From assembly GCA_902826615.1 (NCBI GenBank), contig CADEFN010000001.1, positions 1,302,001 to 1,366,000 of the forward strand: DNA of 64,000 nucleotides. The letters run 5' to 3'. Below are positions 8,098-14,470 of this stretch, piece after piece. The translations under genes were made by a program, and so were the position numbers. Source of the DNA: an uncultured Gemmatimonadota bacterium (lineage in GTDB: Bacteria; Gemmatimonadota; Gemmatimonadetes; Gemmatimonadales; Gemmatimonadaceae). The stretch's first letter is position 1. The number at the start of each line of letters is the position of its first letter. Under the pieces are notes generated by a model. That model saw nothing but the letters and a program-made list of their open reading frames with translations. It was not told where the DNA came from and searched no databases.

Positions 8098-11000
8098 TCA
8101 ATGAAAGTTGTGCCCTTTGGCCCAGGCTTCCCCGGCATCGGCCTTGAGGGCGGTGAACTGCTCACCACGCAGGTTCACGACCTTGCCTTCCACCTGGAGG
8201 GTGCCACGTACGAGGAGGAGGGGAGATGTGGAGATGAGGAGTGCCTGTTTCTCGAAGCGTTTTGGGGTCACGACCACATTGAGAATGCCGGTTTCGTCTT
8301 CCAGCGAGAGGAACACGAACCCCTTGGCGGTGCCCGGCCGCTGGCGGCAGATCACGAGCCCGGCGTGGGCGACCTTGGTGCCATCCTTGCCATGGGTGAA
8401 CAGCTCCTGTGAAGTCTGCACGCCGTTAGGTGCGAGGAGAGCGCGGAGATGGCGCATGGGATGCCCGTTGAGTGAGAGACCGGTGACGCGATAATCGGCG
8501 TCCGTGGTTTCGAGACGGGACATGGGGGGAAGGGGGGCGCGCTCACGCTTTTTGCGTGAAGGGGCGAGGGGGCCGGCATCACCGCGAGTGGCTTCGAGCA
8601 CACGCCAGAGGGCGGTGCGACGGCGCTCGTTGACCGGCACATCGCCCACCATGGTGTCGAAGGCGCCGGCCTCGGCGAGGGCACGGAGGGCGCGCTGATC
8701 GAGACCCGCGCGTGCGACAACATCGGGAATGTCGGTGAAGGGGCCCTGGTGCAGGGCGAGTTCGAGTTTCTCTCGCGCGGCCGCGCCGAGTCCGCGGACG
8801 AGGCGGATGCCGAGCCGGACGGTGGGGGCTGGGGAGGATTTGGTACGATGGGGGATGGAATGATGACGCGGGTTCGGGGAAGCGGCGGTAAATTCTTTTT
8901 CGGGGGGGGCCCCCCGGTCATCGGTAGATGGTGCGACATGTTTCTCGCGGTCCTGTCCCGCATTCACCACTCGCACCTCACCGCCAAATGGCACCACCGC
9001 CCGCCCCTCGCCGCACTCCAGCGAGGTGTCCCACGCCGAACGGGTGAGATCAATCGGGGCGATCTGCACACCATGTCGCCGCGCGTCCTCGATGAGTGTC
9101 CCCACCGAGTAGAACCCCATCGGCTGGGCATTGAGGATCGCAGCCGTGAACTCCGGTGCGTAGTAGTGCCGCAGGTACGCCGAGGCATACACGATCAGCG
9201 CAAAACTCGCCGCATGCGATTCGGGAAAGCCGTAATCCGCAAAGGCATTGATCTGGTTGTAGATCCGGCGGGCGACGTCGTCCGCGATGCCATTCTTCTT
9301 CATCCCCTCGATGAGTTTCTCGCAGATCGCCGCCATCCGTTCACGCGACCGTTTGTGCCCCATGGCACGTCGCAGGTTGTCCGATTCGCCGGGTGTGAAA
9401 CCGGCGGCCGTGATCGCCACCTGCATCCCCTGCTCCTGAAACAGGGGAATGCCTAACGTCCGTTTGAGGATCGGTTCGAGCGTCGGGTGGGGATAGGTGA
9501 CGGGTTCTTCTCCGGCGCGCCGCCGCAGGTAGGGATGCACCATTTCCCCCTGGATCGGTCCGGGGCGGATGAGTGCCACCTCTACCACCAGATCGTAGAA
9601 ACTGCGGGGTTTGAGACGTGGCAAGGTGTTCATCTGCGCGCGGCTTTCCACCTGGAACACCCCGATTGTGTCAGCGGCACAGATGTCGTCGTACACCGAC
9701 TGGTCCGTCATGTCGAGCTGCCCCAGCTCTACGCTCACACCACGGGCGCCGCGGATGTACTTGAGACAGTCCTGCAGCACCGTGAGCATTCCCAGGCCTA
9801 ACAAGTCGATCTTGACGAGGCCCACGAGGTCGAGGTCGTCCCGTTCCCACTGAATCACCGTGCGCCCCGGCATCGACGCCGGTTCGATCGGCACCACCGT
9901 GCGCAATGGCTCCGCGGTGAGCACAAACCCGCCGACGTGGATGGAGCGGTGCCGTGGCGCCTGATGCAGCCCGTCGACAACATCGGGAAGAACGCGCACA
10001 CGTCGGTCACCCGGGTCGAGACCGGCCTGCGCAAGAATGGAGTGCTCGGATGGCGGCTGACCGACGGCCGATGCCGGAGTAGCCTCCCGCTTGCCCCCAA
10101 CGCCTAACGGTTTGAGGACCTGTTCGACCCGTGCGTTCTGCTGTGCTGTCGCCTGCCCATTGGCGTTTCCATACGGTTCGTATCCCTTCGAGGGGCGCCG
10201 GTCCGATGGTGTTGGTGCAGAGGGTGGGCCGTCGTACTGATGTTTGCGTCTGTTGGAGAACTCCGGCCGCCCACTTCCCGCCGCCATATCGGCACGCCTC
10301 TGCGACTGATCTGCCGTCTGCCGTCTGCCGTCTGCCGTCTCAGGAGTCTCCCGTCTGCCATCTGCTGTTTGGCCCAGCAACTGCTCCGCACTCCACTCGT
10401 CTTTCTTCTTGCGCGGGTCGTCCGGAATGCCGGGACCATCGCTGCGCGGGTCCTTGTCGTACTCCCGGCCTAACATGGCCTCCCCTGGTGTCCCGGCACG
10501 GAGGGCGTCCGCTGTGGAGTGCGCCGAAAAGCGGTCACTCAATGCGCTGAGCACATCGGCCTGCTGCACCGAGAACCCCAGCACCCGTGCGGCATCGCGC
10601 ACCGCCGAACGACCGCGATAGGTGATCTGCTCGCACACCATGGCAGCATGTTCACGGCCGTAGCGGGCATAGACGTACTGCAGCACCTTCTCGCGATCGC
10701 GATGGGCAAAGTCGATGTCGATGTCGGGCGCTTCCTTGCGTTCTTCACTCAGGAATCGCTCGAACAGGAGATTGAGTTTGATGGGATCGACCGCCGTGAT
10801 CCCCAGGCAATAACAGACCACGGAGTTGGCGGCCGATCCTCGCCCCTGGCACAATACCCCTTCGCGACAGGCAAACCGCACAATGTCCCATACGATCAGG
10901 AAGTAGCCTGCAAATCCAAGTTTGCCTATGAGGGTGAGTTCGTGGGCAATCTGGCGGCGATAGCGGGGTTCGAGTTCGTCGATGGGGCGCCCCCAGCGGT

Positions 11001-11898
11001 CGATGGCGCCCTGTTCCACCAGGCGGGCGAGATATTCGTCGGCATCGACCCCTGGAGGCAGGGGAAAGTTTGGCAGTGTGGGCTTGAGGTCCTGAAGCCT
11101 GAAGGCACAACGCTCGGCGATGGCCAGGGTGGCGCGGATCCCCGATTCGTCCTGCCTCCAGCGTCGGCGCACCTGGTCGGGATCCTTGAGATACCATTCC
11201 CCATTAGGGCGCAGCCGAGTACCCATCTCGTCCAGACGCCGCTGATGCCGGAGGGAGGAGAGCACATCGTGGACGATCCGGCCGGTGGGGAGCGCGTAGT
11301 GGACGTTGTTGGTGACCACCCACGGAATGCCTAACGACTTTGCCAGGGGAATGAGATGCCGCACGAGGGCCCGTTCCTCTGGGAGCCGGTGATCCCACAC
11401 CTCGATGGCCAGACGTCCGCCGAGGATATCGATGAGGGTGGCGGCCGCTTCGCAGGCGGCATCGTGCTGTCCCTCGGCAATGAGTGAGGGAACCCAGCCG
11501 TGGGGGCATCCGGTCAGGGCGAAAATGCCGCCGGCGTGGGCCGCGAGAGTGTCCAGGGACACCCGCGGCGAACCCCGCAGGCTGTCGAGTCGGCCACGGG
11601 TGATGAGTGAGGAGATATTGCCATATCCCTCACGCGACTCGGCGAGGAGCACGAGATGGGTGAGGCGTTGCCCCACGTCGAGCGACAGTTCGCATCCCAG
11701 GATGCCCCCGATCTCCAGTTCGCGTGCGGCCTGCGCAAAGCGCACGGCTCCACCCAGATCGTCGTGGTCAGTGAGGGCGAGGGCGGGCATGCCGAACGCC
11801 TTGGCCCGTGCCAGCAGCGCCTCGGGTTCGGAGGCGCCGTCGAGGAGTGAGAAGACGGAGTGACAGTGGAGTTCGGCGTACAACGGAGGACCCGGCAA
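8098..11898 (-). CDS. dnaE2: Error-prone DNA polymerase III alpha subunit DnaE2
   Basis: Polymerase of the SOS mutasome, which bypasses lesions together with ImuA and ImuB. The 1266 residues contain a PHP domain (YAELHCHS at 7-14, ALTDHDDL at 41-48) and the polymerase core with PDIDIDF (acids at 392-396) and the third catalytic Asp in KIDLLGLG (~698). An HhH region and a C-terminal OB fold (FLSLEDETGILNVVVTP) follow. Typical DnaE2 is about 1050-1100 residues. The excess sits in two linkers. One, about residues 475-620, lies between the catalytic acids, is Arg/Pro/Gln rich and carries a 7-nt DNA repeat read as TADGRRQ. The second, near genomic 8800-8990, carries a G8C6 run. The catalytic set is intact and the frame is unbroken. 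The start is TTG at 11898, directly after the imuB stop (TGA then TTG), so translation is probably coupled. Confidence 0.93.
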   Translation of the reverse strand: MPGPPLYAELHCHSVFSLLDGASEPEALLARAKAFGMPALALTDHDDLGGAVRFAQAARELEIGGILGCELSLDVGQRLTHLVLLAESREGYGNISSLITRGRLDSLRGSPRVSLDTLAAHAGGIFALTGCPHGWVPSLIAEGQHDAACEAAATLIDILGGRLAIEVWDHRLPEERALVRHLIPLAKSLGIPWVVTNNVHYALPTGRIVHDVLSSLRHQRRLDEMGTRLRPNGEWYLKDPDQVRRRWRQDESGIRATLAIAERCAFRLQDLKPTLPNFPLPPGVDADEYLARLVEQGAIDRWGRPIDELEPRYRRQIAHELTLIGKLGFAGYFLIVWDIVRFACREGVLCQGRGSAANSVVCYCLGITAVDPIKLNLLFERFLSEERKEAPDIDIDFAHRDREKVLQYVYARYGREHAAMVCEQITYRGRSAVRDAARVLGFSVQQADVLSALSDRFSAHSTADALRAGTPGEAMLGREYDKDPRSDGPGIPDDPRKKKDEWSAEQLLGQTADGRRETPETADGRRQTADQSQRRADMAAGSGRPEFSNRRKHQYDGPPSAPTPSDRRPSKGYEPYGNANGQATAQQNARVEQVLKPLGVGGKREATPASAVGQPPSEHSILAQAGLDPGDRRVRVLPDVVDGLHQAPRHRSIHVGGFVLTAEPLRTVVPIEPASMPGRTVIQWERDDLDLVGLVKIDLLGLGMLTVLQDCLKYIRGARGVSVELGQLDMTDQSVYDDICAADTIGVFQVESRAQMNTLPRLKPRSFYDLVVEVALIRPGPIQGEMVHPYLRRRAGEEPVTYPHPTLEPILKRTLGIPLFQEQGMQVAITAAGFTPGESDNLRRAMGHKRSRERMAAICEKLIEGMKKNGIADDVARRIYNQINAFADYGFPESHAASFALIVYASAYLRHYYAPEFTAAILNAQPMGFYSVGTLIEDARRHGVQIAPIDLTRSAWDTSLECGEGRAVVPFGGEVRVVNAGQDREKHVAPSTDDRGAPPEKEFTAASPNPRHHSIPHRTKSSPAPTVRLGIRLVRGLGAAAREKLELALHQGPFTDIPDVVARAGLDQRALRALAEAGAFDTMVGDVPVNERRRTALWRVLEATRGDAGPLAPSRKKRERAPLPPMSRLETTDADYRVTGLSLNGHPMRHLRALLAPNGVQTSQELFTHGKDGTKVAHAGLVICRQRPGTAKGFVFLSLEDETGILNVVVTPKRFEKQALLISTSPLLLVRGTLQVEGKVVNLRGEQFTALKADAGEAWAKGHNFH
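8902..8915. repeat. G8C6 homopolymer tract inside dnaE2
   Basis: Eight G (8902-8909) followed by six C (8910-8915) on the plus strand, read in dnaE2 as Arg-Gly-Ala-Pro-Pro within a nonconserved, Pro/Ser-rich linker. Runs this long are prone to polymerase slippage and would shift the dnaE2 frame. The tract is also a perfect short palindrome. I saw no comparable run elsewhere in the window's coding sequence. Confidence 0.8.
10309..10373. repeat. 7-nt tandem repeat (CTGCCGT)n within dnaE2, copy A
   Basis: Four perfect copies of CTGCCGT run from 10311 to 10338, followed after CTCAGGAGT by degenerate copies (CTCCCGT, CTGCCAT, CTGCTGT) ending at a TTTGGCCC block. On the dnaE2 strand the unit is ACGGCAG. 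Because 7 is not a multiple of 3, the array cycles through all three frames, yet each frame reads the same heptapeptide (ADGRRQT), so it is stop-free in every sense frame. Gain or loss of one unit would shift the frame. It shares a block with copy B in imuB: CCTGAGACGGCAGACGGCAG on the coding strand. Confidence 0.85.
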
Positions 11899-13752
11899 TC
11901 AGTCGTACCACCCTTGAACAAACCACACACTGCCGGCTGGTTCGGGGGCGTGCAGATCGCGATAGACCACCAGGTCGGGCCCATGATCGGCATCTTCGAT
12001 CCGCCAGTAGTCGCGTGCGTAGGTGTCGGTCCACCAGTCACCGGTCAGTCGTTCGGGGCCGGTGGCCCGGCGGATACGGACCCAGCGGTTGCGCCAGTGG
12101 AGCGCACGTGGTGTGTCGGGGGCATGTTCCGTCGGCTCGACGTCGGCCGGCTCCGGCGGATCGAGCTGACGGAAGGAGCGGGTGGGCAGGAGTGGTGCGG
12201 CCGCTGTGTCCGGTGTGGATGGCATGGTGATGTCTTCCACCCGTTCCCAGGTAGCGGCCTGCTCCGGACGGTGGGTGTCGTGCAGCACCGGCCGCACGAT
12301 GGCATCGCTGCCTAACGTGGCACGCAGGCGGGCAAAGGCGGCGTCGGCGGCGGCCGGGTCGCGCCAGGCGGTGTCGAGCAGGTCGCCCTGTGCGCCGGAG
12401 AGTGGAGCCGTGGCGGTGATGGCTACCTGTACCCCGCACACCGGTGCGGTGAGTGGCCATTCGTCCAGCAGGGCCCGGCAGCGTTCGAGGAGCGGGACAC
12501 TGCGCGCCAGAGGGCGCGGCAACCGGATTTCGCGTGTGACGGTGTGGGCCCGCGCGGGGACGGGCATGGCGCCGCGGGCTTCATCGAGGGTGAGTGTAAT
12601 GGCAATGGTGGCGGCGGCACGGCCGTCACTCACCAGTCGCTGCACCAGCCGCTCGAGGGCCGCTCGCACCAGGAAAAGCACAGGTTCGTTAGTCTCGGCA
12701 CTGGGATGCAGCTCGGTGGTGACCGATCGTGGCGCATCGATGCGCGTGAGCCCCGGACGCCGGTGATCGATGCCCTGTGCCAGGTGCCATGCCGAGAGAC
12801 CGGTGGGGCCCCAGCGCCGCTCGACATCTTCGGCGGAGAGCCGTGCCAGGTCGCCAATGGTGTGCAAACCGAGTGCGTGCAGCGAATCGCGCAGGTCGCC
12901 ATCGATGGTGAGGAGGCCTAACGGGACCGGGGCCAGGTAGGCGGCATCCTGCCCCGTGGGGACAATCACCGGTGTAGCAGTTGTCTGCCCTCTGCCACCT
13001 GCCATCTGCTGTCCGCCGTCTGCCGTCTGCCGTCTCAGGTTGCTGTCTGTCGTTTGGCATGATCGTCTTTCCCACGTTCCCGCACGCGCGGCCACACACG
13101 AGTCGGCGATGGCCACACGGGCGGCCGGGTGCCAGATCCGGGCGATGGAGGCGAGCTGGCGGGCGAGGGCCGGTTCTCCGCCTGACGATTCGACCCCATT
13201 GGCGCCGATCCACCAGAGGCCCGGGGCGCCCTGGGCCGGGGTGACTTGCGGGCTGGCTCGGACAAACGCCGCGGTGGCGCGGGTGACGTCGCGTGCGATC
13301 AGGTCCTCGTCCCAGGGGAGCACATGGAGTCCGGCACATCGGGAGCGGGCCTCGGCGATGGTCATCCCGGCGCGAATGCGCGCACGACCTGCGGCCGCAG
13401 TGGCGGTGCGGATGCGCTGGCCATCAACCAGTACGATCGGGAGATCGTCCCAGTGGGCGGGATCATGGCGATGTGCCGTCTGCTGTCTGTCGTTTGGTGT
13501 GGTCTTCGAGGATATGCGGCCGCTCGGGTTGCCGGCGGTCGAGGAGGAAGTGCTCCCGGCTGGTGGCCGGTTCTGCACAGCGTCGTTTGCGTGGGAGGGC
13601 AGTGCCTCCCACACCATCGGGAGGAGGAGTTGCTGGTCCGAGGCCGGGGGCGTCCGGAGCGGCACGCTCCCCGAGGCGATTGCGTGTCGCCACACCGCGC
13701 CGATCGGGAATCGCGGGATTCGTACACAAGCGATGCGCCAGGCTGAATGCAC
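11899..13752 (-). CDS. imuB: ImuB, catalytically inactive Y-family polymerase-like mutasome hub
   Basis: Bridges DnaE2 to the beta clamp and ImuA during SOS mutagenesis. The GTG at 13752 gives the characteristic N-terminus IACVRIPRFPIGAVW. The Y-family fold continues with LPIVLVDGQRI (~104), then GLWWIGANGV (~178), where active polymerases carry their second set of catalytic acids, so the enzyme is predicted to be dead, as is usual for ImuB. Helix-hairpin-helix and little-finger regions follow (LHTIGDLARLSAEDVERRWG, ~297-315). The C-terminus ends in a Trp-rich ImuB-type tail (DYWRIEDADHGPDLVVYRDL). Two nonconserved insertions, ~residues 35-100 and 228-262, contain 7-nt-repeat-derived sequence. 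The 5' end overlaps imuA by 290 bp, far more than the few bases typical of such pairs. 617 residues, longer than the usual ~500. Confidence 0.88.
   Translation of the reverse strand: MHSAWRIACVRIPRFPIGAVWRHAIASGSVPLRTPPASDQQLLLPMVWEALPSHANDAVQNRPPAGSTSSSTAGNPSGRISSKTTPNDRQQTAHRHDPAHWDDLPIVLVDGQRIRTATAAAGRARIRAGMTIAEARSRCAGLHVLPWDEDLIARDVTRATAAFVRASPQVTPAQGAPGLWWIGANGVESSGGEPALARQLASIARIWHPAARVAIADSCVAARAGTWERRSCQTTDSNLRRQTADGGQQMAGGRGQTTATPVIVPTGQDAAYLAPVPLGLLTIDGDLRDSLHALGLHTIGDLARLSAEDVERRWGPTGLSAWHLAQGIDHRRPGLTRIDAPRSVTTELHPSAETNEPVLFLVRAALERLVQRLVSDGRAAATIAITLTLDEARGAMPVPARAHTVTREIRLPRPLARSVPLLERCRALLDEWPLTAPVCGVQVAITATAPLSGAQGDLLDTAWRDPAAADAAFARLRATLGSDAIVRPVLHDTHRPEQAATWERVEDITMPSTPDTAAAPLLPTRSFRQLDPPEPADVEPTEHAPDTPRALHWRNRWVRIRRATGPERLTGDWWTDTYARDYWRIEDADHGPDLVVYRDLHAPEPAGSVWFVQGWYD
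12983..13058. repeat. 7-nt repeat array within imuB, copy B
   Basis: Eight units of a degenerate 7-mer (GTCTGCC, CTCTGCC, ACCTGCC, ATCTGCT, GTCCGCC, GTCTGCC, GTCTGCC, GTCTCAG) run in register from 12983 to 13038. They are followed by a non-repetitive arm, TGCTGTCTGTCGTTTGG (13041-13057). It encodes the RRQTADGGQQMAGGRGQ-type insertion of ImuB (~residues 240-256). The same arm recurs at 13481-13497, and the GTCTGCC-GTCTCAGG junction is shared with copy A, so these are copies of one dispersed element rather than independent low-complexity sequence. Confidence 0.8.
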
Positions 13753-14470
13753 ACGTCACCTCGATACTGTGGGGTCGTGCACCGCCGCCCTTGGTGACGG
13801 TGCAGGTGAAAGTGGGAGTTGCCGGATCCTGCTCGGGGCTGGGCACGTCGCGGGCGAGGGAAAGTCCCTGCGCGGCGCGTGTCAGCCGGGTTTCGATGCG
13901 CCGCCACGCCGCGGGACGTTCGGCGGCTGCGGCGGGGGTGTTGCGCTGCAGGGAGAGGCGCAAGGCACTCCCCACCAGACCGGGTGCCACCGTCTGATGA
14001 TGCAGGATGAGAAAGGCGGCATTGCCTTCCTTCGCCAGACGGGTGAGCCGGACAAGAATGCTGCGGGCAATTGGTGTCCGGTCGTCGAGCACCACGAGAC
14101 CGAAGGCGCCACTGCGCAGCAGGATGTCGGCACACCAGGCGCCATGGTCACTGGCGGACGCGGGGGGACGAACGGTCCAGAGCCGGCCACTCCCGGCCAG
14201 GGGTGCCCAGTCGGCCGGGGCGAGGGTGCGCGAGGCGTCGATATAAGCAACCCACCGTTTGTCTGCGAGAGTGGCAGCGACCACAGCATGCACGAATGTG
14301 GTCGCACCACTCCCGTCGGGCCCCGCCACTTCCGTGAGTCGCCCGCAGGGAATGCCCCCACCGGGCAGGACGGCGTCGAGGGCCGAGATCCCGGTGGCAA
14401 TGGTTTCCCCCGCCGGGACTGGCGGGGCAATGACGGCGGCAAGCTGGGCGCGGAGGGCGGCGAGTGACAC
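13463..14470 (-). CDS. imuA: ImuA, RecA-like SOS mutagenesis protein
   Basis: First gene of the mutasome; a RecA/SulA-like partner of ImuB. The N-terminus is typical (MSLAALRAQL, then ISALDAVLPGGGIPCGRLTEVAG). The P-loop-equivalent reads GPDGSGATTF (~50-59) with Ala where RecA has the ATP-binding Lys, so nucleotide hydrolysis is doubtful. A Walker-B-like strand LVVLDDR follows, and the conserved core ends near TCTVTKGGGARPHSIEVTCAF. The remaining ~95 residues are Arg/Pro-rich and lie entirely within the out-of-frame imuB 5' region; they look like fortuitous read-through, and the last residues (TKRQTADG) come from a third copy of the 7-nt repeat. Either the native stop was lost or the tail is tolerated. 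Start ATG 14470; the gene is divergent from a small membrane protein gene at 14634. Confidence 0.85.
   Translation of the reverse strand: MSLAALRAQLAAVIAPPVPAGETIATGISALDAVLPGGGIPCGRLTEVAGPDGSGATTFVHAVVAATLADKRWVAYIDASRTLAPADWAPLAGSGRLWTVRPPASASDHGAWCADILLRSGAFGLVVLDDRTPIARSILVRLTRLAKEGNAAFLILHHQTVAPGLVGSALRLSLQRNTPAAAAERPAAWRRIETRLTRAAQGLSLARDVPSPEQDPATPTFTCTVTKGGGARPHSIEVTCAFSLAHRLCTNPAIPDRRGVATRNRLGERAAPDAPGLGPATPPPDGVGGTALPRKRRCAEPATSREHFLLDRRQPERPHILEDHTKRQTADGTSP
13474..13497. repeat. 7-nt repeat element, short copy C in the imuA/imuB overlap
   Basis: GTGCCGTC (13473-13480) is followed by TGCTGTCTGTCGTTTGG (13481-13497), a 17-base arm identical to 13041-13057 in copy B. It encodes DRQQTAHR in ImuB and, in another frame, the C-terminal TKRQTADG of ImuA, so one element contributes to two overlapping proteins. 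Confidence 0.7.

Follow-up and report, generated by a model that had tools for sequence, protein, structure and literature searches.

Heptanucleotide repeats recur in the mutasome genes of a Gemmatimonadota family as probable passengers of a dispersed repeat

Dispersed heptanucleotide repeats are already known in bacteria but remain poorly explained. In Xanthomonas, 89–93% of the GGGAATC arrays are intergenic, lying 28 nt from the open reading frame (ORF) on their 5′ side compared to 160 nt on their 3′ side (PMC4692102), and in the Guaymas Maribeggiatoa the TAACTGA arrays are found mainly just upstream of start codons (PMC4679880). Tandem heptamers are also known from switching genes: the tract of neuO counts from 3 to 53 units, 20 being the commonest, with 65.6% of the alleles OFF (PMC13001214), and constructs of hmw1A carried 13–24 units (PMC8262952). 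Here, we analyzed a stretch of 64,000 nt (the window) from a Gemmatimonadota genome (G000; 5.9 Mb, 98 contigs), where the heptamer ACGGCAG is repeated in the genes of an ImuA-ImuB-DnaE2 mutasome operon. We found that arrays of period 7 concentrate again and again in mutasome genes across the family, forming a hot spot. With a probability of about 0.7, we consider these arrays to be tolerated passengers, belonging to a concertedly evolving family of dispersed heptamers that colonizes tolerant linkers and whose frame-breaking length changes are purged.

Profiles and synteny identified the operon by its RecA-like ImuA, Y-family-like ImuB and DnaE2. Its genes and arrays are as follows:

8098–11898, minus strand: dnaE2, error-prone DNA polymerase of 1266 amino acids (NCBIfam NF004225, 1243 bits against a cut-off of 939; Pfam PHP, DNA_pol3_alpha and DNA_pol3_finger)
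10310–10371, minus strand: ACGGCAG array in the dnaE2 linker, around residues 510–530 (perfect tract 10310–10340)
11899–13752, minus strand: imuB, Y-family-like polymerase homologue of 617 amino acids (Pfam IMS and IMS_C, weak but above cut-off; adjoins DnaE2 in the mutasome loci of the family)
12983–13056, minus strand: degenerate ACGGCAG array of 74 nt in the imuB linker, around residue 243 (perfect tract 13015–13035)
13463–14470, minus strand: imuA, RecA-like mutasome accessory protein of 335 amino acids (Pfam RecA, 45 bits; synteny)
13474–13496, minus strand: degenerate ACGGCAG units at the imuA C-terminus, within the imuA/imuB overlap

The product of imuA scored 57.5 bits against the NCBIfam model ImuA_translesion, under that model's cut-off of 150. 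An earlier reading made from the letters of this DNA (the sequence-only reading) had reported repeats in dnaE2, in imuB and at the imuA/imuB overlap, and these arrays proved to be real by Tandem Repeats Finder (TRF), perfect tracts and shuffles. The dnaE2 array was placed by TRF at 10310–10365 (period 7, 7.7 copies) and contains a perfect tract of 31 nt, or 4.4 units. That of imuB was placed at 12983–13035 (period 7, 7.6 copies, 80% matches), with a perfect tract of 21 nt; it is degenerate as described, but not in all its copies, since three are perfect. The units at the imuA end share a 27-nt similarity with the end of the imuB array (repeat family D9). Among periods of 2–15, only period 7 gave runs of 12 or more matched bases in the 64-kb window, except for the 14-nt multiple of the dnaE2 array. 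The sequence GCCGTCTGCCGTCT (up to 2 mismatches) matched 8 times in the window compared to 1.45 expected, a number reached by none of 100 shuffles, and codon-shuffling yielded 0.017 such arrays for dnaE2 and 0.023 for imuB. Since shuffles and codon-shuffles rarely produce them, the window arrays are not due to chance.

We then extended the analysis to 34 mutasome loci of the family. All our comparisons are between species, on genomes that are mostly draft and probably metagenome-assembled, with genes called by a simple home-made codon-usage gene caller. The mutasome genes contained 58 period-7 arrays in 181 kb (0.320 per kb) compared to 8 arrays in 294 kb (0.027 per kb) for the other genes of the same loci. 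This corresponds to a ratio of 11.8 (p = 7e-17, assuming independent arrays although their independence is incomplete), or 10.1 leaving out genome G009. Arrays were present in 14 of 30 dnaE2 genes as against dnaE1 in 2 of 18 genomes (p = 0.013). The intergenic DNA of these loci, with 17 arrays in 54 kb (0.312 per kb), was level with the mutasome genes, and 21 of the 34 loci had at least one array. The association with the mutasome is thus a genuine over-representation, as the sequence-only reading had suspected. In DnaE2, the arrays were found at residues ~74–79 (five genomes), 470–612 (seven) and 982–1050 (five); in ImuA, at residues 181–219 (three genomes); and in ImuB, at residues 86–98 together with the imuA end (four genomes besides that of the window), 243–254 (five) and 506–517 (three). 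Different genera carry different units at the same positions of the proteins.

The phenomenon is tied to the 7-nt period rather than to a single unit, the unit or set of units being particular to each genus. ACGGCAG 21-mers were detected in 13 of 395 sampled genomes of the phylum, all from one family and distributed over five genera. In genus g6 (G009 and G414), ACGGCAG is replaced by GAGTCAC (58 hits, zero in the reversed-sequence control for both genomes), and no GAGTCAC was found in family genomes outside this genus (179 family genomes). In 349 kb of G009, we counted 28 heptamer units and 65 period-7 arrays, compared to 22 arrays of period 6 and none of period 8. This genome (L099, L199–L218) is an extreme case of diversity in simple sequence repeats (SSRs) of seven nucleotides. 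Our genome-wide counts come from pattern searches and from 1.13 Mb of sampled stretches, the random baseline representing six genomes. In this baseline, 54 period-7 arrays were present in 136 kb of intergenic DNA compared to 15 in 997 kb of genes, a density 26 times higher between genes than within them. Period-6 arrays exhibited no intergenic or genic skew in the same 1.13 Mb, and only 12 of them were intergenic.

The sequence-only reading had regarded the arrays as a device of the mutasome, which is contradicted by the presence of the same heptamer throughout the genome, mostly between genes. A pattern search with a 14-mer core (at most one mismatch) returned 96 places in G000, or about 50 separate arrays, and 37 of the 39 scored outside the mutasome were intergenic, as were 25 of 26 arrays in G001, 9 of 9 in G004 and 13 of 13 in G016, which belongs to another genus. 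The reversed-pattern control of this ACGGCAG search was uninformative, because the reversed unit is the same repeat. Identical unit variants recur at many loci within one genome. Of 62 intergenic arrays, 52 were closer to their 5′ gene (52 vs. 10, p = 6e-8), with a median gap of 22 nt at the 5′ side and 92 nt at the 3′ side. On the ACGGCAG strand, the 5′ edge lies near the gene boundary and often overlaps a TAG stop codon, the 22 nt being measured from the perfect core. A polar, telomerase-like growth of the arrays was also considered and dropped, because a gradient of degeneracy along them, with old units at one end, had seemed likely by eye but was not significant (37 vs. 26, p = 0.21).

These properties resemble those of the GGGAATC repeats of Xanthomonas and the GGGGA(C/T)T repeats of Nostoc: a 7-nt unit in many dispersed, mostly intergenic arrays, a position nearer to the 5′ ORF, lengths that vary between related species and, in G009 and in the intergenic sample, an over-representation of period 7 compared to other periods (PMC4692102). 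In contrast to these repeats, ACGGCAG has no G-tract of three but only GG, which places it among dispersed heptamers in the wider sense and outside the published G-quadruplex subtype. As the unit contains no GGG, we rejected a role in G-quadruplex formation. The arrays described here also differ in entering repeatedly the coding linkers of one operon. A strict 7-nt period and a dispersal near gene boundaries are shared with the TAACTGA direct repeats of Beggiatoaceae (PMC4679880) and with the heptanucleotide repeats of Calothrix, a cyanobacterium (cited in PMC4692102). Both are repeats of other phyla with other units, and TAACTGA is one unit found across phyla whereas the units here are genus-specific (PMC4679880).

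Several of the intergenic ACGGCAG arrays of G000 (L127, L047, L053 and L108) share a 3′ flank that resembles a hairpin (CGGAGCG...CGCCCTGACG type) and may be another dispersed element, coupled to these arrays. At two other places (L045:2001–2040 and L051:1994–2036), the array is followed by its own inverted copy right after a stop codon, forming terminator-like hairpins. In the ACGGCAG-rich G016, ImuB is only a short remnant with an in-frame TGA (L092, G016:C45:8019–8240), a sequence that suggests the loss of the mutasome while the repeats persist.

The comparison of close relatives was informative about the stability of the coding arrays. In genus g13, the arrays at ImuB 506, ImuB 243 and DnaE2 74 are common to three or four species with about four units each. 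The unit differs by species (GACGGTG, GACGGGA, GATGGCN, GATGGTA) and changes in step along the array; sites and lengths are therefore conserved, with a unit evolving in concert. The mutasome variants match the units of their own genome, GATGGCG and GATGGCN relatives in G086, GACGGTA and GATGGGA (GAYGG-type) in G422. An orthologous intergenic array differed by two units (14 nt) between G001 and G004, a change that would break the frame if coding. Among the intact coding arrays that we compared, none differed in such a frame-breaking way. The dnaE2 gene of G001 runs off the contig end exactly where the array of G004 begins; we did not take this as evidence of array variation, and it is compatible with a repeat-induced assembly break.

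The linkers of the window species had been presented as oddities absent from typical DnaE2 and ImuB. For DnaE2 this does not hold, since G002, G003 and G015 have the linker but no repeats in it. The imuB linker reaches 111 nt in the window species, whereas four congeners have linkers of 51, 51, 42 and 57 nt. Its gain of 60 nt relative to G001 and G004, a multiple of three, is a species-specific expansion. Only the imuB insertion, and not the DnaE2 linker, is new to the window species. That the host proteins tolerate their arrays, as had been stated, was borne out.

We propose that the arrays would be created and homogenized by slippage or copying in steps of 7 nt and purged from most genes, whereas the long, weakly constrained loops of accessory mutasome proteins, at the DnaE2, ImuA and ImuB positions given above, would repeatedly accept them. 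A slippage origin of heptamers, linked to the stretch of DNA that the polymerase holds, has been suggested by others (cited in PMC4692102). Frame-breaking gains or losses of single units would be removed, so that the surviving alleles would be in frame and short. With such purging and such tolerant loops, the arrays would be passengers that lengthen linkers and whose only side effect, at most, would be an inactivating frameshift now and then.

Control genes were used to weigh this proposal. DnaX, FtsK and DnaE1 were taken to be essential, and LigD accessory. We counted 4 arrays in 57 kb of dnaX and ftsK (linker-bearing controls), 3 in 55 kb of DnaE1 (paralogue control) and 3 in 21 kb of LigD, those of LigD all being from genus g6. 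The gradient observed in G009, from 9 arrays in 296 kb of random genes to 1 in 2.9 kb of DnaE1, 2 in 2.2 kb of LigD and 16 in the mutasome, fits constraint. DnaE2 exceeded DnaE1 3.2-fold in frame-neutral period-6 runs and 5.6-fold in period 7. Given this period-6 excess and the gradient of the controls, part of the mutasome excess probably reflects a general tolerance of dispensable, loop-rich proteins to low-complexity insertions.

Several points weigh against passengers as the whole explanation. Codon-shuffling predicts 2.3 arrays for the mutasome where 57 were observed; for 896 random genes, it predicts 8.3 where 15 were observed. The period-7 excess is greater than that of period 6, which is nevertheless expected if the repeat process of the genome supplies heptamers. 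The approximately 12-fold excess also goes beyond the densities of dnaX, ftsK and DnaE1 (0.055–0.09 per kb), so an extra cause is possible, either selection for switching or damage-linked insertion.

Selection for switching is the likeliest of the alternatives, though improbable. The sequence-only reading had proposed that slippage at the arrays could switch the mutagenesis off and on. In this view, dnaE2 or imuB would be frameshifted reversibly, subpopulations would thereby toggle a mutator, and selection would keep the arrays. Part of this stands: the unit shifts the frame, 7 not being a multiple of 3, and it is repeated inside open dnaE2 and imuB. The recurrence of the hot spot across many genera, whose units differ although the sites coincide, speaks in the same direction. 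A precedent exists in the 6-bp mutability switch of Salmonella mutL, likewise a short tandem repeat inside a mutation-rate gene (PMC2955026), and heptamer switching is known for neuO, whose tandem repeat is part of the coding region and determines the reading frame (PMC13001214), the tract of hmwA also being of heptanucleotides (PMC8262952). However, mutL combines an in-frame 6-bp unit, a repair gene and a demonstrated conversion of alleles (PMC2955026), whereas here a 7-bp unit occupies a mutator operon and no conversion was observed. Unit numbers are mostly far higher in the tracts of neuO and hmwA, about 20 being typical in neuO and 13–24 in the hmw1A constructs, and variation in ON/OFF state or in expression has been demonstrated for them. 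In the 58 mutasome arrays, the perfect tracts had a median of 19.5 nt and a maximum of 34 nt (4.9 units), and the window, with 31 and 21 nt, offers no long perfect hypermutable tract of the contingency-locus kind. The intergenic arrays were longer, with up to 60 nt in G000 and up to 99 nt in G001.

The state of the genes points the same way. Across species, 29 of the 30 array-bearing mutasome genes are in frame, and at the three g13 sites the arrays are shared and length-locked with a drifting unit, which at the level of species largely corresponds to what the sequence-only reading had itself named as evidence against switching. The sole exception, the dnaE2 gene of G063 (L260:4750–5000), has a natural frameshift in a repeat-filled linker while its sister G110 is intact; this may be a true loss, an OFF allele or an assembly error. 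We did not count it as proof of an OFF phase, because the assembly is a draft and the frameshift is flanked by GGGAGAC heptamers and by 10-nt repeats. Moreover, most arrays of the family are intergenic, and LigD and DnaE1 also bear arrays in array-rich genomes. Overall, phase-variable mutagenesis is not supported, and a rare switching role appears unlikely. The same low probability applies to mutasome arrays selected family-wide as slow mutator contingency switches, re-evolved in several genera with different units in the same loops.

Somewhat less likely still is that arrays are laid down at sites of DNA breakage and repair during SOS-induced transcription, SOS genes then collecting them by mutation. 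The equal array densities of mutasome genes and intergenic DNA would agree with this, as would the arrays of LigD and DnaE1, repair and replication genes, in G009 and G183. However, the other intragenic arrays showed no functional theme, being found in ABC and AcrB transporters, an amidohydrolase, sugar hydrolases, a molybdopterin enzyme and an SPFH protein, and LigD is, to our knowledge, usually outside the SOS regulon. It is very improbable that the arrays are regulatory or protein-binding sites (DNA or RNA) at gene ends, with the mutasome copies regulating the operon, since despite the strong polarity at gene boundaries and a similar role proposed for the TAACTGA arrays (PMC4679880), the mutasome copies lie within coding linkers and not at the operon start, and the unit sequence drifts fast.

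One family here combines many lineage-specific heptamers with a strict period, a positional polarity and a unit that drifts in concert, which opens the 7-nt step to direct testing. In addition, since heptamers have repeatedly colonized the same loops of a mutator operon, the family provides a natural test of neutrality versus adaptation for short repeats within coding linkers.

Finally, the imuA and imuB genes of the window share about 290 nt (13463–13752), which they read in different frames. An overlap of ~230–290 nt recurs across the family, and both protein ends can be aligned, indicating a long dual-coding stretch.

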